In this document: positions 5,621 through 24,194 of the stretch, piece after piece
How the letters are laid out: each line of letters opens with the position of its first letter
Position numbering within the stretch: position 1 is the first letter of the stretch
IMG/VR virus record: IMGVR_UViG_3300048922_000306
Coordinates: 1 to 24,194 of that record
Length of the DNA: 24,194 nt
Strand: one strand, 5' to 3'
Origin: a virus
Program-made: the position numbers and the translations under genes
Notes under the pieces: model-generated
The model's database searches: none
Told to the model about the DNA's origin: nothing
What the model saw: only the letters and a program-made list of their open reading frames with translations

Positions 5621-6841
5621 TCATCCTCCTCCAACGGCCTGCACGGCTTTGGTCGTGGGGATCTCGTTGGCGTCACGATTCAAATTTAGAAGATCGTTGA
5701 GGATAGCTAAGATTTGTAAAGTACTGTCGTTGACGCCATTGCTACACGGATTCAAATAGCTGGCACTGGCGACATAATATGTCGTACCGCGATATGCCAC
5801 CGAGAATCGAGAGCCCGCCACAGGCACTGTATAAAGAAAAAATGGTATCCGAGGACATCCAGCATGAGGATCACCAGGCGGTCGGAGACGCGAGTTGTCA
5901 TCTGGATCAACAAGTGTGCCCAAATAATTGAATATCTGCTCTACAGATCTCAACCGTAGAAAATACTTTTTACGCGGACTGTGACCGGTAGATGGATTGC
6001 ATGGATTTGCTAATCCGCTGCGATCTGGTTCCGGGCCACCAAGGCTAGGTACATCCTCCCCGGTCGGCCCCTTTGTGACAGAGTTTTGCACTACCGAAAC
6101 GGGCACATAGCCATCGTTACCGCCTTCGTAAAAGCATAGTTGCGATCCACCAGACTTTGCTGTGAGCTGGACTAGCCCGTGGCCCACATCCTTAACACCC
6201 AAGCCGGCGTTGTTTGCATCGATTAGTGCTTTGGCATCGGCTCTAATCGGCGGCCCGAAAGGCTTAGGACCAGCAGATAGCGCGACGACTTTTGGTGGCT
6301 CGTTCTCGGTCCACAGATTTGCTTTAGCTAGGAAGTCGCTGCTATTTTTTCCTCGGGCTGGCAGGATCTGCGAGTTACCTGTTATTTTATCATATTCTTC
6401 AATTGATGCGACCAAAAGGTGAAAAACCCATTCGGTTGATGTTGTTCGGCTTCGCTCAATGAAATATGCAAACAGTGACCCACTTATCGGGTTTAGAAGA
6501 CCTTGATAAAACTGCTTGGTATTCGTTGGGGCTATGTCGAACGTAGGATTCGTGTTCGCCGAAAATGCGCCGGCTTGTATAGAGGTTCGCGAGCCCATCC
6601 CTGGCTGACCAAACGGAATTGTCGCCTGAGTGGAAGCGCCCATAGACACCGAACCTCTAACTTGCGACAGGTCGGAAAAATATAGAGGAGCTGCGTCCCG
6701 TCCTCGAAGGACGTTGATGACCAGTGTGCTATTGGACGTCTCTTCGATGGTGCTGTTGTAATCCATCGTTGAGTCAGAAATAAACGGTGCTAGAGAACAG
6801 CCAGTTAGTAGAAACACACACGCGAAAAAAGCCTTGTACAT
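5621..6841 (-). CDS. predicted outer-membrane or periplasmic lipoprotein (moron cargo)
   Basis: This is a 406-aa protein starting MYKAFFACVF, with a lipobox LLTGC and lipidation Cys15. Residue 17 is Ala rather than Asp, consistent with outer-membrane sorting. Just after the anchor is a segment NSTLVINVLRGRDAAPLYFSD (about residues 37-57). It resembles a family of proteobacterial hypothetical lipoproteins in which a Leu-Asn-Ile-Leu-Arg-type motif precedes a Pro-Leu-x-Phe motif; I know no assigned function for that family. The middle has a NPTFDIAPTNTKQFYQGLL stretch typical of the same proteins. The ATG at 6841 is preferred over the TTG at 6859 because it gives a compact signal peptide. Base composition is clearly less GC-rich than the phage genes on either side, which points to separate acquisition. 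It is not a normal part of the head operon. Confidence 0.72.
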   Translation of the reverse strand: MYKAFFACVFLLTGCSLAPFISDSTMDYNSTIEETSNSTLVINVLRGRDAAPLYFSDLSQVRGSVSMGASTQATIPFGQPGMGSRTSIQAGAFSANTNPTFDIAPTNTKQFYQGLLNPISGSLFAYFIERSRTTSTEWVFHLLVASIEEYDKITGNSQILPARGKNSSDFLAKANLWTENEPPKVVALSAGPKPFGPPIRADAKALIDANNAGLGVKDVGHGLVQLTAKSGGSQLCFYEGGNDGYVPVSVVQNSVTKGPTGEDVPSLGGPEPDRSGLANPCNPSTGHSPRKKYFLRLRSVEQIFNYLGTLVDPDDNSRLRPPGDPHAGCPRIPFFLYTVPVAGSRFSVAYRGTTYYVASASYLNPCSNGVNDSTLQILAILNDLLNLNRDANEIPTTKAVQAVGGG

Positions 6842-6988
6842 CGGTTCGTCCGTTGCCAAGTATAGGGGTTGGGGTATCTACGTCCGTTCCTCTTGCCGAC
6901 ACTGCAACATACCGGAGCCAAAAATACAATACCCGAAGGCGCGTCAGGTTGAGGAGAAAACTCTCCCTGAGCCTCATTTCTTATTCGA

Positions 6989-7239: not shown

Positions 7240-9393
7240 CTAAGCGAGCATAGAGCCGATCGAGAGGGATGATGCCGCGGCCATCGGTGGCTGCTGGTCT
7301 CTGGCCAATGGCGGCGCCGCCGAGGTATCGGGCCGACCAGGTGGTGAGTCCGGCTGTACCGGATCGATCGGCCCGATCAGCGAATTATGCTCCCATGTCG
7401 CTGCCCAACTCGGTGGCCGCGTCCAGTCCATACGGGCGAGGCCATGCAAGTGAGCGATGACATGCGTGCCGGCCATCAGATCCGTCGCTTCGTTGCGGAC
7501 CCCCTGGTGTGGCTTCTCCCATTTGCCGCGCATGTTGCGTCGCTTTGCGACCAGTTGCTCAAAGAACAAGTGAGGGGGCTCGCCGCTACGTTCCTCGGCC
7601 GGAGCGCCGAAGTTGCCGCGCAGCGCATGCGGGAAATGCACGTGCCACGCGCTCGGCTCCGCGGTTGCGAGTTGCCCCGCCAGGTGATCCTTGAACTCAT
7701 CCGCCGCGAACTGCGCCAGCGGCACCTGTCCGCCGGCATTTGCCCGTCGGTCCTTGCGCGTGGTGTCGGGATAGACCACGGACAGATGGGACGCACCGGA
7801 ATGGCCCTGACCCTTCATCGGCACGATCGACCACGCATCGCGGCCGTTGATCCGGCCATACCGCCGCACCTGATTGCGCTGACGCAGTCTGCGCCAGAGC
7901 GCATAAGCGTGCATCGTAACGCCTGGCTCACCACCGGAATCATAGCCGATTGCCTTGATACTCATGCTGCGTGTCCCGTCGCCCGCCAGCGGGATGCGCA
8001 GCGCGATCAGATTGCTGAACAATCGGTCCCAGCAGACGGCGTCGGTGGCCGGCGTCGCATCAACACGCCAGGCGTCCACAATCCATGACTCGCCATTCTC
8101 GCCCCAGCCGCGAACAAGGACTTCGAAGCGGTTGGCCTGGATGTCGACCATGCAGGTGAGGAACCGCACGCCCTCCGGCACCTCGCCAAGCTTCAGTCCA
8201 GGTTCGGCACGTTCCGCCAGCGTGAGCGCATCGAGCGTGCCAATCTTGCGGCGCGGCACAAAGGGCAGGCCAAGCTGTTTGGTGCAGACCTCGTGCTCGG
8301 TTCTGTCCTCCCCCGAAATGTCCGCCTCGCGCTGCGCCTTGACCAGCGCGGTGGCCAGGCCGCCGATGCCCCGTAACAGGAAAGGCGACATGACGCCGGT
8401 GATCCAGAAGCCGGCCGTCTGACGCGGCGCCAGCTCGCCGACCACCTGGCCATCCTCGTTGATGTCCTGCCCGAGGCCGAGCCAGCGGCCTTGCAGGTTC
8501 ATGCTGCGCCGCTGCCAGTCCTCGATCAGACAGCCATTGACCGGACAGAGCAGACGCCCGTCGCGCTCGATGACGTCCAGCGGCGCATCCGCCGGGTAGT
8601 GTAGCGTCATCTGTCGCGATGCGATCGGGTTGGGCGATGACCATGCGCCACATTCCGGGCACGGCCACCACCAGATGCGGCGATCCGACTCAGCGAAGAT
8701 GGCCATGATGCCGCGCTGCCAGTCGCGCGACGGCTCCATGCCTTCCGCCTGGTCCGGATGCGAAATCGCGAGCAGCATCGATGCGGACCCGAACGTCTGG
8801 CGGCGGATGTCGAGGAGCGCCTTTGGATCGCCCAGCGATGCCGGGTAGGCATCCCACTCGTCGGCAACGATCCGCGGTGCGCTCTTGGAGATCATGTTGC
8901 CGTGGATCGCCGGCAGGAACTGAACCGACATGCCTCCGAAACGCTTGAAGTGCAGCGTATCGTCGCTCGGACGACTGCCGAGCGCCGCGCGTAACGGATC
9001 GTGGTCGAGGATCATGGGGTCGATGCGCGTCTTGACGTGCGACTCAAGCAGCGGACCCGCTGGCATGTACCAGAGGAAATCCGCCGGATCGGCGGCGACG
9101 GACTGCAACAGCCAATTATGCGCGATTTCGGTCTTGCCGGACTGCCCAGGACCCACGATTGCCGTCGTGTAATACAGTTCCGATGTGAGGCATTCCATCG
9201 GCTCGACCAGATAGGGCGCTTCATCATGCGACCACGGGCCGACATAGCCGCCGCCCGCATTGCTCAGCCTGCGATGCCGCAGCGCGTAGTCCGCGACGCT
9301 GATCTGATCGGGCGGGCGGAAGTGACGCGCGAAGTCGTCGACGAGAATGGCCCAGGCATCGGCATAGGCGCATTCGGATGGATCGGTGGGCAT
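7240..9393 (-). CDS. terminase large subunit, lambda gpA family
   Basis: This is a 717-aa packaging motor and nuclease that cuts concatemeric DNA and pumps it into the prohead. The ATPase domain has a Walker A GPGQSGKT at residues 81-88 and a Walker B RIVADEWD around 174-181. Two Cys pairs (CPECG near residue 244 and CPVNGC further on) suggest a zinc-binding insert as in other GpA proteins. The C-terminal nuclease domain begins near a CMVDIQANRFEVLV segment, matching the family's first acidic motif. The length is close to gpA (641 aa) and related proteins. The ATG at 9393 overlaps the stop of the Mom-like gene as TGATG; a GTG at 9396 is an alternative. Normally gpW would follow directly; here a 2.3-kb insert intervenes. 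Confidence 0.93.
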   Translation of the reverse strand: MPTDPSECAYADAWAILVDDFARHFRPPDQISVADYALRHRRLSNAGGGYVGPWSHDEAPYLVEPMECLTSELYYTTAIVGPGQSGKTEIAHNWLLQSVAADPADFLWYMPAGPLLESHVKTRIDPMILDHDPLRAALGSRPSDDTLHFKRFGGMSVQFLPAIHGNMISKSAPRIVADEWDAYPASLGDPKALLDIRRQTFGSASMLLAISHPDQAEGMEPSRDWQRGIMAIFAESDRRIWWWPCPECGAWSSPNPIASRQMTLHYPADAPLDVIERDGRLLCPVNGCLIEDWQRRSMNLQGRWLGLGQDINEDGQVVGELAPRQTAGFWITGVMSPFLLRGIGGLATALVKAQREADISGEDRTEHEVCTKQLGLPFVPRRKIGTLDALTLAERAEPGLKLGEVPEGVRFLTCMVDIQANRFEVLVRGWGENGESWIVDAWRVDATPATDAVCWDRLFSNLIALRIPLAGDGTRSMSIKAIGYDSGGEPGVTMHAYALWRRLRQRNQVRRYGRINGRDAWSIVPMKGQGHSGASHLSVVYPDTTRKDRRANAGGQVPLAQFAADEFKDHLAGQLATAEPSAWHVHFPHALRGNFGAPAEERSGEPPHLFFEQLVAKRRNMRGKWEKPHQGVRNEATDLMAGTHVIAHLHGLARMDWTRPPSWAATWEHNSLIGPIDPVQPDSPPGRPDTSAAPPLARDQQPPMAAASSLSIGSMLA

Positions 9394-10253
9394 CACTGGA
9401 ACCTCAGTCGCGGTGCCCAGGTGGTCGGCGGCAGCGGAATCCGGCCGGCGTTCGCGCGATGGATACGCGCACGCGGCGCCAACTGCTGACGATCACATCC
9501 GCTGAAGCGCGGCGGCATGAAGGGCGGCGGCCGTGGTGGTGGTCCGCCGCGACCACAGCCACGGGTTGCCCTCGACCAGTGGACGTGACGCTGCGGCTCG
9601 TCCGGGCGCGGATAGGGCAAAGACTGCAAGCCCAGGCGTTTGGCCTTTCTTTCGCCGTCGCGCGACAAGGCTCGCCAGTAGAAATGCTTGCCGTCATCGA
9701 AGTGGGGGCGGAGATCGGCATGGCGTATGATCCTGCGGAGCTTGGGGACCGCGTTCGTGCCATATTTGCTGTTGAGCGAGCGGTCGGGGACGAACACACC
9801 GTTGACCATGACGCCATCCTTGCGCGCCTGCCGCCGCCCGCCATAGCGCCAGCTTGCCGCTTGATAGATGCCGCCATGATGACCTTGTTCGGTGTCGGCA
9901 AACGAGACGATCAGATCGGTTAGATGCTCACGCGCGACCTGTTTGACCGTCAGTGAGATCAGGCCGGTCAGCGGCGCCTGGCAGGTCGGTACACGCACCA
10001 GTCTGGTGAGTTCCAGCACCCGCTCCTTGCGTCGTGCGACAGGGATCGAGAACACGCAGGCCGCGACACACTCACCGCAATCGCCGAACACGCCGCCGTC
10101 CCGGTGCCAGGTGCCGCACAGCTGGACCAGGCTGGGCGCTCGGCCGGAGTAGTGGTGGCGGATGATGATCCGGTTCGCTTCATCGAGCCTGCCGACATGA
10201 AAGTGCAGCCGTTCACGCGCCGGCGCTTCCGTCGGTTCCGATCCGTTGGACAT
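9393..10253 (-). CDS. Mom-like DNA adenine modification enzyme (GNAT fold)
   Basis: This 286-aa protein resembles the Mom family of phage Mu, which changes adenines to N6-carbamoylmethyl-adenine and protects phage DNA from restriction. From memory, the residues important in Mu Mom are an adjacent His-Tyr, then an Arg, an Asp and a Tyr (H48, Y49, R101, D139, Y149). Here HHYSG gives His34-Tyr35, LELTRL gives Arg84, VSFAD gives Asp120 and GGIYQAASW gives Tyr130. The Asp-Tyr spacing of 10 is identical and the other spacings are within three residues. Residues about 220-286 form an extra Pro/Arg-rich tail of unclear value. The gene lies between small and large terminase and overlaps the latter by one base, so modification and packaging genes are co-transcribed. 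No Com-like zinc-finger regulator is visible nearby. Confidence 0.78.
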   Translation of the reverse strand: MSNGSEPTEAPARERLHFHVGRLDEANRIIIRHHYSGRAPSLVQLCGTWHRDGGVFGDCGECVAACVFSIPVARRKERVLELTRLVRVPTCQAPLTGLISLTVKQVAREHLTDLIVSFADTEQGHHGGIYQAASWRYGGRRQARKDGVMVNGVFVPDRSLNSKYGTNAVPKLRRIIRHADLRPHFDDGKHFYWRALSRDGERKAKRLGLQSLPYPRPDEPQRHVHWSRATRGCGRGGPPPRPPPFMPPRFSGCDRQQLAPRARIHRANAGRIPLPPTTWAPRLRFQ

Positions 10254-19356: not shown

Positions 19357-19965
19357 TCGTCAGGGGGAGCTGGGGCCGCACTTCGCCGGATCGCTGCTCG
19401 CTACAGAAAGCTGATTTGTATACTGCGTCCACTGGTGGTGAGCATCGAGTCATCTGCCTTTGAGCCAGATGCCACCTCCCAAATATTCTATTTGTGGCTG
19501 GCTGGCTGGCTGGGCTTGGCTGTGAGCGGAGCGTTCGGTGTCGGGCGGACATTCAAAAAAAGGCGGACACTGATCCGCCCGGGCGCTTCGACGGCTATCG
19601 ACCCAATTCGGTTGCTCGATACTCCGGCGGTCACTTCTAAAAGCCGCCATCCGCCGACAGAAGCTTTACTCAGAAGGCGATAATTTATCCGACCGATGGT
19701 GGAAAGCATGTAGATAATAACTACGGTCTTTGCTTTCTGTTGTCGCCTTACTTGCCGACGCCTGAGTAATTGGCTTTGCGCCCACTTCGGACATTCAGGC
19801 TGTTAGGGCATTTCGTGAAAAGCCGCCGCCCGTTTGGCTCGAATGTCGGGGTACCCTTCCAACTTAGGCCGATTGACATCGATTTGTGCGAATTTGCCGT
19901 GGATGATTCCGGCGATGCAACACAGTATGTGACTGCGAACTCCGCGCTGCATTTTGGGCATCGCT
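19357..19965. other. non-coding junction between phage early genes and the accessory operon
   Basis: Open frames here are short, lack ribosome-binding sites and resemble no known protein. Visible structures are a (TGGC)n run near 19495-19510, a hairpin at 19562-19579, and two copies of CGGACATTCA (19546-19555 and 19788-19797). An integrase gene would be expected here and is missing. The right attachment site or a deletion scar probably lies within this stretch. I could not identify a core repeat, since the other prophage end is outside the window. Confidence 0.5.
19562..19579. terminator. GC-rich hairpin, possible bidirectional terminator
   Basis: GGCGGA (19562-19567) and TCCGCC (19574-19579) form a perfect 6-bp stem with a 6-nt loop, preceded by AAAAAAA at 19555-19561. 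For leftward transcription from the accessory operon, that A-run reads as a T-run after the stem, a good intrinsic terminator shape. It is nearly 390 bp from the operon stop, so the assignment is tentative. Confidence 0.45.
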
Positions 19966-21942
19966 TTAAGCCGCGTCGAGATTGTTTGACTTCATACGAG
20001 CGGGCGCGTTTGCCTTGCGGATGACGTCTGCGATGTGGCTGGTGAGGCCTACCTTCCCAAGGAGCTCGACGCCTTCGCCCGGTTCGAGTTTCGCGATCAG
20101 CTGGCGGAGCTCCTCAAGTCCTTGCGAAACTTCAAAGGTCGTCCAGCGCTTTGCCTTGCCAGGGACCAGCACATCGGCAACACTTTCAGTAGCGCCGCGA
20201 TGCATCTGCACCACCCACGCGCGTTCGCCATCGTGAACCCATTCGAAGCGGACAGGGCCGAGTTCGGCCGCATCTGCATGCAGGCGCTCGACATCGCTGG
20301 TGATAGAAGCGGGAAGCTTTTGCGCCTTTGCGGTGCCTTGCATGAAGGCGTCGCCTGTGCCAGGCAGCCCCTCAGTTACGATCTCGCCCGTCTGGAGCAC
20401 GATGGACGCGCCGGAATAGCGCGGCTCAACGGCTGCCTGACTGAGAATCGACGCAATCAGTTCATGTTTGGGGTCTTCACCCACCATGATCCGAAAGGGA
20501 TCGCTCCAGCCCCGCGTCGTGGTGAACTTTCCTGGCACCTGCTCGGTTGGCGCCGTTCGACACCAAATCTCGGAGGAGCCCGTAGCCTGACCGAACGTAA
20601 ATGGCGCTACTCGCCGATTGATTACAGTCGTGCGCGGCACCGGCAGGCCAATGTGGTGCGCCACGAGCAGACCGAACACCTTGTCGCCAACCATCCGGCT
20701 GAAGCGATTCGGCCACTGAACGGTCGGCGGCAAGCCGAGTCCAGCGTGCTCGGCGATCTCCCATCCCAGAGTGTGCGTGTGGCGCCAGCCGCGCGGCCGG
20801 GGATGAAGGCTGAATTCTAGCCGCGTGTTCACCGGGACCGCTAAATCGGGCTCGAAGCCGTAAACCGTAGCAAGAAGCCTCAGGCCCCACCCGAGCGGTA
20901 GGGAGGCCGTGCCAGCTTTCTCTACGGCGCGCGGCGTATCGTCCGGTGAAAATTCGATGACTTTGCCGAGCAACACGCCCGACACGCCACCATCATGGAT
21001 ATCAACCGTCTCGTTGACGATCGTGTTGAGGCCTTCGCGGGTGAGGCGAACAACCGCGTCGATGACATCATCGGCGCTCGTGAGCCCGTAAATGAATTCG
21101 CGGCTGAGTGGACTTTCCGGCCTGAAGCTGCGGACGTTGACTGATCCGTCGGCACTGCGCGCGAGAAGCGTCTCAGCCACGTCCTGGATGCTCGAGAATA
21201 CGTGGTTGGGCTCTTCCCCCAAGACACGCGAATAGGCCTGCTTCGGCTTGCCGTAACGCGGCTCGTAGCTGACGAACTGGGCAACGTTGATCAGTTCCGC
21301 CAGACGATCGAGTGATGCATCTTTTCGTGGAATCCCGCCACCCGGCACATAGACGATGGTCGGCAGCGTTGCCTCGAGCTTGTCATGTGCCGATCGCAAT
21401 GTTTCGCGGAGATACGAAGGTGGCTGCGCCAATCCCTCCACGCGCGCGAGCGCGTGCTCTATAGCCGCAATACCGTCACGCGCGACCACAGGTGAGCCAT
21501 CGATCTGTGTGGTGGGAATGCCTTCGAGATGCGCACGGCAGAATTCGGACGCGCAGCCCGCGCTATACTCCCATCCTTCCATCAACAGAATACGGTCGGC
21601 GTGATCGGCGATAAACTGCTCCCACAGCTCCAGGTAATCCTGCTGCGACCAAGCGTTGACGAAAAGGCTGGCTGGCTCGATCACTGGCTCGGAGCCCTTG
21701 GCGCGGAGGAATTCGGCAGCGAGCTTGAGCTGGTTCTCGTTGGGGACGATCACGTGCTCGTGAAGGGCGCTGCGATAGGCCTCGGAATCCAAGGCAAGCC
21801 GATGCCCCGCTCCGCTCCACCAGTCGATGAAACGCAGCCCCGTGGTAATCGGGCCGCTGAGATAGGCGACTTTTCGCGATCCAAAGGCGGAGCGCCAGAC
21901 CTTGCGGATTGCGTCCTGAGGCTGGGGTAAAGACGAAGTCAT
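19966..21942 (-). CDS. deoxyribosyltransferase-like / PEP-synthase-type ATP-grasp fusion protein
   Basis: This is a 658-aa protein with two recognisable parts. Residues about 22-147 resemble a nucleoside 2-deoxyribosyltransferase/DUF4406-type Rossmann domain: an early strand VAYLSGPIT (25-33), ADRILLMEGWEYSAGCASEF (115-134) with a GW-x2-SxG-xxxE layout, and a following helix. Glu133 would sit near the usual active-site acid. Residues about 305-590 look like a divergent ATP-grasp region of PEP-synthase/pyruvate-dikinase type: DGGVSGVLLG (317-326), FSPDDTPRAVEKAG (331-344), EIVTEGLPGTGDAFMQGT (520-537) and FEWVHDGERAWVVQMHRG (566-583). The last closely matches the family's xEWxxDGxxxxLLQxRP end. 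It lies 18 nt after the AAA+ gene with an AAGGA site, so the two form an operon. Substrates are unknown. Confidence 0.68.
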   Translation of the reverse strand: MTSSLPQPQDAIRKVWRSAFGSRKVAYLSGPITTGLRFIDWWSGAGHRLALDSEAYRSALHEHVIVPNENQLKLAAEFLRAKGSEPVIEPASLFVNAWSQQDYLELWEQFIADHADRILLMEGWEYSAGCASEFCRAHLEGIPTTQIDGSPVVARDGIAAIEHALARVEGLAQPPSYLRETLRSAHDKLEATLPTIVYVPGGGIPRKDASLDRLAELINVAQFVSYEPRYGKPKQAYSRVLGEEPNHVFSSIQDVAETLLARSADGSVNVRSFRPESPLSREFIYGLTSADDVIDAVVRLTREGLNTIVNETVDIHDGGVSGVLLGKVIEFSPDDTPRAVEKAGTASLPLGWGLRLLATVYGFEPDLAVPVNTRLEFSLHPRPRGWRHTHTLGWEIAEHAGLGLPPTVQWPNRFSRMVGDKVFGLLVAHHIGLPVPRTTVINRRVAPFTFGQATGSSEIWCRTAPTEQVPGKFTTTRGWSDPFRIMVGEDPKHELIASILSQAAVEPRYSGASIVLQTGEIVTEGLPGTGDAFMQGTAKAQKLPASITSDVERLHADAAELGPVRFEWVHDGERAWVVQMHRGATESVADVLVPGKAKRWTTFEVSQGLEELRQLIAKLEPGEGVELLGKVGLTSHIADVIRKANAPARMKSNNLDAA

Positions 21943-21960
21943 TTGGTCCTTGCTAGCCGA

Positions 21961-24194
21961 TCATGCATTGTTTGTCATGTAGCCGTCAGCTGCGCTCTGG
22001 AGAGCGCTTTCGCTGGCATACGGTGGCTCTGGCCCGCTAATGAGCGGCTTGACGTCGAGTGGTGGTGTTCCTTGCAGCGCACTGCCCTCCCTATGCGCCA
22101 TTGCGACGAGAGGCAGAAACTCGCGCTCGATCGCATCGCGATCGTCGGTTTCGCTGAAGGCCTTGGAATACAGGCGCAGGGTCGTCGTACGTCCCCATCT
22201 CAGTAATTCACGCTCGAGCCCCTGGAGCGTTTGACACTTCGGCGGCTGGTGCAATACTCGAGCCACCGCCGCCTGAATATCGTTGAAGCCAAGGAAGAAC
22301 GAGGCGCACCCCAGCTTATCCCAATCCGCGCTGTTAAGGCCTTCTGGGCTCAATGAACCTTCGCTCGTGGCCCCTTTTAGAAATTCTTTCAACATGCGCC
22401 TTCTGGAGCCGGCATCGGGCGCGAGGAGAAGATAATTCTGATCGATACGCCCCGTCCTGCGGATCGCAGGGTCGATGCGATAGGCATAGTTCGTCGCCAA
22501 GACGAAGATGCTGCGCTTAGCTCGACGGAGATTGTTGAGCTTGGTTAACATCCCAGGTGTCATGAACTTGAACACCGTGTCCTGCTTTTCGTGTCGGCCA
22601 GAACTACGGTCGAGCACTAGCTCATCGATCTCGTCGAATAAGATGACAACGTTTGCCTGAGCTCCGAGCACTTCGAAGATCATCTTGGCACGCGCTTCCA
22701 CTTCACCGCTACCGCCGGCAAGGAAATCGCTTACGGTAATGGTAACGAGAGGGAATTTGAGTGCGTCGGCGAGTTTCTCCGCGACCGTGGTCTTGCCGGT
22801 GCCCGGCGGACCATAAAGGAGCATCGAATAGTTCTCTGGCTCTCCGGCCAACCAGCCTCGCAGGAAAGCTTTTTCGACTTGCAGATAGGTTTTGAAGTTG
22901 TCCCCGAACGAAGTGACAGGTTCGAATCTTCCCGACACAGTGTCGTCGTTCGCCTTGGGCTCGGCGAGCGATTGCTGTTGCCATGTGTCCTTGCTCCAGG
23001 ACTCTTCGAGGAGTTCCGGTTTGCGCACGGCGAAACGCGAAAGCCGCAACGTGGTTCGAGCGATATGGTTGTAAAGGCTACGGCGGTAGCCGAGGAGGAA
23101 GCCGACGACCTGAGCAGTATCCCAGAGATGGATCGCATCGGGATCGGCGATATGTTCCGAATGCCAACCGGAAACTCCAGGGCTAATGTTTACGCGGCGC
23201 GCGATCAGCCAACTCCAGAACCGCCGGAACAGCTCGATATAACGTTCTGAATAGCGATGGAACCGTTCGTCCCGCCTGTCCAGCAGCTCGCACGAGCGGA
23301 GAAGCGAGTTTGCGGCCTCCACGCTCACGGGGAACAGCACCATCCCGCGTTCATTTCGGAGAAACGGCTTGGTCGGGCGCCAATGGGCGCTGGTTTCCTG
23401 CGCCTTGCCGAGCACATCGAGGATGCGTTCGAACAGCGGTGTGTCGATCGGCTGCTCGGACAGCCGCAATAGGCCCTCCAGGCAGAAGATTAGCTCGGCA
23501 GGATCGAAGCGACTGTCGGGGATCGTCGAATAGGACAATTGATCGTGCAGCGTGCTTTCGAAATAGCGGAGGAAGGCAGGCGGTCGCGTCTCGATTTCCA
23601 ATGCATCCGCTGCTCGGACGACGCACAGTGGCACGAAAGCATTGGTGAGCGGCTTGGACGGATCGCTATCGACAAAATTGAAAAATTTAACCGCCCCTTG
23701 TGCGGGATCGAGCCCAAGCAGTTTCTCCGCGGAAGCCAGCGCATAGTCTCGCACGTCCTGCGAGATGTCTTCCCCGTGTGGCGAATTCGATAGGATATTG
23801 GTCAGAAAGCAGAGCGTAAGCGGATCGTCTGGACCATAGGTTTTCGATAAGGTCTTGATAATAGCATGATCGCCCGCCTTGATTTTTTTCTGAAGCTTGG
23901 CGATCGCTTTTTTTCGGGGTGTCTCGAGATTGATGCGAACACCCTTGTCCAGATCGAACGGATAGACCGGACGGTCGCGGCCAGTGCGCTTCGCCTCGTT
24001 TAGGAGATCGATCGCGTGGATCATCATCGCCGTGGTGCTCTGCGAGAACTCAGCCTTCTTGGCCAGGTCCGCGTTCTGTGCGGATCCTCCATCGGCGCCC
24101 GATTCGACTGCCTCGCCAGATGCTCCCTGCGCATCATCTTTGGAGGCGTTCTCTTCCCCCTTTCGGCATTCATAGGGCCATGAGTCGCGAGTCG
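21961..24194 (-). CDS. AAA+ ATPase with long N-terminal helical region, open at window edge
   Basis: This is an AAA+ protein of the classic (FtsH/Cdc48-like) type. From the first internal ATG (24027) it is 688 aa: an alpha-helical N-terminal region (1-370) with WHSEH near residues 288-292 and IHLWDTAQVVGFLLGYRR at 299-316, then the ATPase module. That has Walker A GPPGTGKTT (406-414), Walker B VILFDEIDEL (461-470), sensor 1 ATN (511-513) and an arginine-finger region AIRRTGRID (521-529). The frame continues without a stop to the window edge, with coding-like sequence (ENASKDDAQGASGEAVE...) and no in-frame start, and the ATG at 24027 has no ribosome-binding site. The true start therefore probably lies beyond 24194. 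It is the first visible gene of the operon with the fusion protein. Confidence 0.82.
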   Translation of the reverse strand, partial: TRDSWPYECRKGEENASKDDAQGASGEAVESGADGGSAQNADLAKKAEFSQSTTAMMIHAIDLLNEAKRTGRDRPVYPFDLDKGVRINLETPRKKAIAKLQKKIKAGDHAIIKTLSKTYGPDDPLTLCFLTNILSNSPHGEDISQDVRDYALASAEKLLGLDPAQGAVKFFNFVDSDPSKPLTNAFVPLCVVRAADALEIETRPPAFLRYFESTLHDQLSYSTIPDSRFDPAELIFCLEGLLRLSEQPIDTPLFERILDVLGKAQETSAHWRPTKPFLRNERGMVLFPVSVEAANSLLRSCELLDRRDERFHRYSERYIELFRRFWSWLIARRVNISPGVSGWHSEHIADPDAIHLWDTAQVVGFLLGYRRSLYNHIARTTLRLSRFAVRKPELLEESWSKDTWQQQSLAEPKANDDTVSGRFEPVTSFGDNFKTYLQVEKAFLRGWLAGEPENYSMLLYGPPGTGKTTVAEKLADALKFPLVTITVSDFLAGGSGEVEARAKMIFEVLGAQANVVILFDEIDELVLDRSSGRHEKQDTVFKFMTPGMLTKLNNLRRAKRSIFVLATNYAYRIDPAIRRTGRIDQNYLLLAPDAGSRRRMLKEFLKGATSEGSLSPEGLNSADWDKLGCASFFLGFNDIQAAVARVLHQPPKCQTLQGLERELLRWGRTTTLRLYSKAFSETDDRDAIEREFLPLVAMAHREGSALQGTPPLDVKPLISGPEPPYASESALQSAADGYMTNNA

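Follow-up and report, generated by a model that had tools for sequence, protein, structure and literature searches.

An AAA+ ATPase and a nucleoside deoxyribosyltransferase–dikinase-like fusion protein form a rare mobile gene pair with a putative role in nucleotide-targeting conflict

RADAR consists of the AAA+ ATPase RdrA and the adenosine deaminase RdrB (PMC9994260), and the gene pair described here resembles it in being two tandem genes for an AAA+ ATPase and a nucleotide-acting enzyme. It differs from RADAR in that its AAA+ protein belongs to the Cdc48/NVL clade and its enzyme is a fusion of a nucleoside deoxyribosyltransferase (NDT) domain with a dikinase-like region, not a deaminase. As neither RdrA nor RdrB was matched in PADLOC and the partner showed no deaminase match in Pfam, PADLOC or by fold, membership in RADAR was rejected; the parallel to RADAR drawn in an earlier note on this DNA thus holds as logic, but no RADAR-type homology was found. 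In PADLOC the AAA domain matches IetA best (E 1.3e-17, with TRIP13 among the other matches), but this match is confined to the AAA core and the pair has no subtilisin partner. With 56.5 bits against the cut-off of 510 bits for NCBIfam IteA, and no protease family match of the second gene in Pfam, PADLOC or NCBIfam, IetAS was rejected as well. Precedents for NDT-type domains as NAD+ or nucleotide effectors are given by the DrHyd survey (PMC9503650) and by the NDT-like effector of Retron-Eco1, which forms filaments by polymerisation and is reported to hydrolyse NAD+ (Carabias 2024, cited in PMC12887533). The retron and the pair, the latter as a putative conflict system, are both mobile and contain a domain of the NDT superfamily, whereas the NDT domain studied here is joined to a dikinase-like domain and its conserved neighbour at 17 loci is an AAA+ gene and not a reverse transcriptase gene. 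Rifampin phosphotransferase, PEP synthase and PPDK share with the dikinase-like region an ATP-grasp domain and a phosphohistidine swivel motif, published as GGXTS/CHAA(I/V)(I/V)(A/S)R, whose His forms the phosphohistidine (PMC12167813). In contrast to these enzymes, the region comprises about 450 aa in total with a very short swivel domain, is too small to include a domain that binds PEP or rifampin and has NDT as partner. The anti-phage dGTPase adjoins the same region in another gene cluster (module C, see below) and is absent from the pair. No description of the pair, of DUF4406 or of DUF7002 in defence was found in the literature searched, which contained few subscription journals and preprints. 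The pair is also not described in PADLOC, and the fusion protein has neither a PADLOC nor an NCBIfam model, in agreement with the earlier statement that no named system with this pair was known.

The window, meaning the whole stretch of 24,194 nucleotides that was analysed, is an IMG/VR virus record (IMGVR_UViG_3300048922_000306), and the far side of the locus lies beyond the contig end and outside of it. Both leftward genes were recovered as open reading frames at the spacing noted before (Table 1). The pair adjoins the edge of a prophage and is convergent on the phage early region; a tRNA attachment site of the prophage was looked for, and the window contains no tRNA. No stop codon interrupts the AAA reading frame before the contig ends, homologues have a start about 40 residues beyond that point, and the ATG at 24027, the nominal start, falls within an S.sT.aM motif that is conserved in 15 of 15 relatives. 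Thus, the AAA gene continues beyond the window and this ATG is internal.

Table 1: Features of the gene pair (window positions).
Feature	Position	Strand	Remarks
AAA+ ATPase gene, 5'-incomplete	21961..24192	-	743 codons up to contig end; homologues 714-881 aa
Helical N-terminal region of AAA protein, candidate sensor	22903..24192	-	at least 11 helices in model
AAA domain, Cdc48/NVL-like	22432..22824	-	the four motifs listed next are retained; pore-loop aromatics absent
Walker A GPPGTGKT	22789..22812	-	
Walker B ILFDEID	22624..22644	-	
Sensor-1 ATN	within 22489..22500	-	
Arg finger RRTGRID	22441..22461	-	
Intergenic gap, 18 bp	21943..21960	-	ribosome-binding-like AAGGA ahead of NDT start
NDT-dikinase-like fusion gene	19966..21942	-	658 aa
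NDT/DUF4406 domain	21358..21942	-	YLSGPITTG, WSQQDYLELW, GWEYSAGCASEF with invariant Glu133
PPDK_N/PEP-synthase-type ATP-grasp region	20190..21324	-	VNVRSF ... FEWVHDGERAWVVQMH
Short phosphohistidine (swivel) domain	19980..20189	-	invariant TSH at codons 20035-20043
Terminator-like hairpin GGGCGGATCAGTGTCCGCCT, then TTTTTT	19561..19580	-	385 bp downstream of NDT-dikinase-like gene; shuffles give about as many such sites

The first protein matches Pfam AAA with an E value of 5.6e-27, and its core is nearest to Cdc48, NVL and FtsH. The complete set of Walker A, Walker B, sensor 1 and arginine finger claimed earlier could be located, and the motif residues are mostly invariant among 15 homologues. 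Where p97 D2 has its aromatic pore-loop residues the window protein has Gly-Ser, and no aromatic residue was found at this site in its relatives. As far as this can be judged from the alignment, a role in regulation or assembly is thus more likely than protein threading. A large helical N-terminal region had also been proposed and agrees with the predicted model, which is of moderate confidence (pLDDT 78) and helical in this part. The region is strongly patterned, with WPY, SRFDPAEL and GWHSEH being conserved; a sequence comparison of it with the PDB gave nothing credible, and the Foldseek matches listed for the whole model are dominated by AAA proteins. An alpha/alpha toroid is a possible candidate for its fold. 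An AAA protein with part of a related N-terminal region is encoded on a Parabacteroides plasmid (L004, 7434-9446), between a gene annotated as thyX and HIT/DHFR genes.

The NDT-like domain proposed for the second protein was confirmed by matches to Pfam DUF4406 (E 5.9e-6, above the gathering cut-off) and to a PHROG nucleoside deoxyribosyltransferase family (E 1.6e-6), and a comparison of its profile with the PDB gave no match. Among 27 relatives the invariant residues include Tyr27, Thr33, Gly35, Trp107, Trp124, Ser127, Gly129 and Glu133, and the SxGCxxE motif with the catalytic-type Glu is invariant or nearly so. Domain match and conserved catalytic Glu together place the domain in the NDT/DrHyd superfamily. 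In Rhizobium beringeri (L003, 9944-12034) a stop separates the in-frame NDT and dikinase-like parts, being either a split or a decaying fusion.

For the approximately 450 aa following NDT in the window protein no Pfam, NCBIfam or PADLOC model was matched. The AlphaFold model of the fusion protein is very confident (pLDDT 92.9), and a Foldseek search with it resulted in ATP-grasp enzymes, with ligases as the best matches; rifampin phosphotransferase and PPDK, the latter over 471 columns, were among the others. Pfam PPDK_N was matched in five of 61 members of the family (best E 3.8e-4), the window protein itself not being one of them. When the swivel region was compared by hhalign with verified swivel proteins, the C-terminal GLTSHIADVIRKANAPAR aligned to GG.TSHAAIVAR of the swivel domain (P 1.4e-5, probability 80%), bringing the TSH into register with the catalytic swivel His. 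T634, S635 and H636 are invariant in 12 aligned proteins. Both a PPDK_N-type ATP-grasp domain and a swivel domain with the catalytic His, the latter shorter than usual, can therefore be recognised as in enzymes of the PEP-synthase/PPDK type. On the basis of the ATP-grasp fold, the PPDK_N matches in relatives and the TSH/swivel alignment we named the region dikinase-like (DIK), and sequence and model suggest that it is probably a compact dikinase of the PEP-synthase/PPDK type. Describing it as ATP-grasp-like, as the earlier note did, is correct by fold but incomplete with respect to the probable dikinase with its phosphohistidine motif. Over its full length the region resembles PEP synthase only weakly (hhalign probability 7%), and as the best Foldseek matches are ATP-grasp ligases, a ligase reading of DIK is possible.

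In order to describe the distribution of the pair, a genome scan and a viral scan were combined, and DIK was found at 88 loci. On viral contigs single-protein queries matched nothing and matches were obtained with an alignment as query. In part of the loci NDT and DIK form one protein; in the others NDT has an adjoining gene of its own for about 200 aa, usually immediately before DIK. At 17 loci including the window the AAA gene adjoins NDT and DIK, and these loci belong to Pseudomonadota, Bacteroidota, Myxococcota, Planctomycetota and Actinomycetota, the count of five phyla including L092. In 16 of them AAA is located directly upstream of NDT, the two genes being separated by -38 to +39 bp, and in L092 it lies downstream. 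A pairing kept to less than 50 bp across distant genomes, which the earlier note had named as support, is found here. The three parts diverge together, with correlations of 0.79 for AAA and DIK, 0.72 for AAA and NDT and 0.85 for NDT and DIK (Mantel p 0.0005, calculated without a host-tree control). NDT and DIK are found without such an AAA gene nearby at no fewer than six loci, L027, L067, L070, L076, L078 and L088 (five further loci end at contig ends), genomes of four of these six carry only generic AAA proteins, and DIK also occurs without NDT or AAA. Thus, the pairing is not obligatory. With few candidates scored per genome, NDT was detected in one of 298 genomes from the order of the Mesorhizobium copy and AAA in a single genome each among 396 Bacteroidota and 399 Pseudomonadota, every time only in the genome at the centre of the comparison. 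Among 50,697 phage records NDT-DIK is absent. In the DIK tree the window protein groups with copies from Novosphingobium and Mesorhizobium. The pair is real, mobile, rare and patchy and is present in at least five phyla.

Two further virus contigs bear the pair among phage genes, once between portal and terminase (L096) and once beyond a tail-fibre gene (L095), and two rhizobial plasmids carry it, while most copies have a chromosomal or plasmid location with no evident phage genes nearby. Defence genes were found beside several copies: type I restriction adjoins L089, a type IV restriction endonuclease L092, mad3 L033, HerA-SIR2 L035 (and also L072, which belongs to the dGTPase form), PDC-S01 L081 and HipA L003. 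If restriction, HerA-SIR2 and candidate defence genes are counted together, about five of the pair loci have such a neighbour. PADLOC families matched were 210 for 130 neighbours and 105 for 118 control proteins of the same contigs, the latter matches, as listed, being mostly generic SNF2 or FtsH-like, a difference to be taken as an indication and not as a statistic. No core metabolic operon was seen around the pair (module A). Homologues that occur alone and mainly in housekeeping operons would have spoken against a defence or stress system; since the loci are patchy and accessory, this is not the pattern found, and the earlier interpretation is partly supported.

From the sequences we propose, with slightly less than even confidence, that the pair is a mobile AAA+-gated nucleotide-targeting conflict system that would be RADAR-like in logic and unrelated to RADAR, its defence role being putative. 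The AAA+ ring would sense an infection or stress cue via its helical N-terminal region and license the partner enzyme. The NDT domain would then split a free (deoxy)nucleotide, a nucleoside or NAD+ at its N-glycosidic bond, and the dikinase-like domain would phosphorylate the cleavage product through the phosphohistidine with conversion of ATP to AMP, which might make the step irreversible, deplete the pool or yield an abnormal or toxic nucleotide. The proposal builds on domains, active-site motifs, the tight operon, co-divergence, prophage and plasmid carriage, patchy distribution and the recurrent nucleotide-enzyme partners of DIK, all of which can be read from the DNA; from these we infer the sensing, the order of catalysis, the substrate and the defence outcome. 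If it works as proposed, the pair would be a further independent coupling of an AAA+ ATPase to an enzyme acting on free nucleotides, with the logic of RADAR built from other parts, and it would bring a phosphohistidine dikinase into bacterial immunity. To our knowledge, such a reaction is not known from any defence system.

Without a fused NDT, DIK also occurs with other partners in two clusters. One cluster (module B, 33-35 loci) contains a P-loop kinase-adenylosuccinate synthetase fusion, an HD (YfbR-like) protein and DUF7002; with L014, L048 and L086 among its more than 30 loci it looks like an undescribed nucleotide module. Another one (module C, 27 loci) contains a dGTPase-like HD protein (PADLOC dGTPase E 4.6e-121), joined in part of the loci by PfkB-NDT, QueC and an Ogg-like protein; this version with the Ogg-like glycosylase (L007, L010, L039, L054, L072) is found mostly in Hyphomicrobiales. 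Neighbours that recur in the DIK clusters and could be assigned to Pfam are mostly nucleotide or nucleic-acid enzymes, and this recurrence with varied nucleotide enzymes predicts nucleotide or nucleoside phosphorylation with conversion of ATP to AMP as the chemistry of DIK. In the DIK tree the AAA form needs at least five label changes on well-supported branches, showing that partners have been swapped. Divergent DIK genes standing alone are present in two large virus contigs (L101 and L102, 109 and 48 kb). It is conceivable, if rather doubtful, that compact phosphohistidine dikinases, so far undescribed as a family, form the common core of at least three mobile nucleotide-centred systems with swappable partners (AAA+/NDT; adenylosuccinate synthetase-kinase/HD/DUF7002; dGTPase/NDT-PfkB/QueC/Ogg), which would make abnormal phosphorylated nucleotides in infection and of which the AAA prophage version would be the sensor-gated form.

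Modules B and C could instead be nucleotide salvage or base-modification pathways, and the same might apply to the pair itself as a pathway of salvage or of DNA-base modification or exchange on mobile DNA, in which a base is set free or exchanged by NDT and then activated by DIK, with AAA as assembly or remodelling factor, not being defence as such. The biosynthetic appearance of the other DIK partners (adenylosuccinate synthetase-kinase, QueC, PfkB-NDT, Ogg-like glycosylase) and the position of the AAA relative L004 between thyX and HIT/DHFR genes agree with this, but the patchy, rare and plasmid- or prophage-borne distribution, the defence neighbours and the lack of a core metabolic operon around module A do not, and we regard this explanation as unlikely. 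Less probable still is an abortive-infection effector in which AAA gates an NADase or nucleosidase and DIK, not being a phosphotransferase, does no more than sense ATP or nucleotides or acts as an amine-modifying ligase. The filament-forming Retron-Eco1 effector, NAD+-hydrolysing according to the report cited in PMC12887533, speaks for it and the ligases at the top of the Foldseek matches fit such a DIK, but the invariant TSH and the swivel-domain match argue against a DIK other than a phosphotransferase, and the Pfam matches are to PPDK_N and not to a ligase. That the pair is phage cargo, guarding the lysogen from other phages or manipulating host nucleotide pools for the prophage, is improbable: three virus contigs bear it beside phage genes, including the copy between portal and terminase, but most copies show no evident phage genes around them and the 50,697 phage records do not contain NDT-DIK. 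The AAA+-gated conflict system remains our preferred, tentative reading.

Two other genes of the window were noted. A Mom-family protein (Pfam E 1.8e-19) is encoded at 9393-10253 on the minus strand adjoining the terminase gene and is possibly a phage DNA-modification gene with anti-restriction function. Between the terminase and portal genes a lipoprotein-like ORF of 412 aa (5621-6859, minus strand) has a low GC content of about 0.51 and gave no match in a PHROG search; it is possibly a moron.
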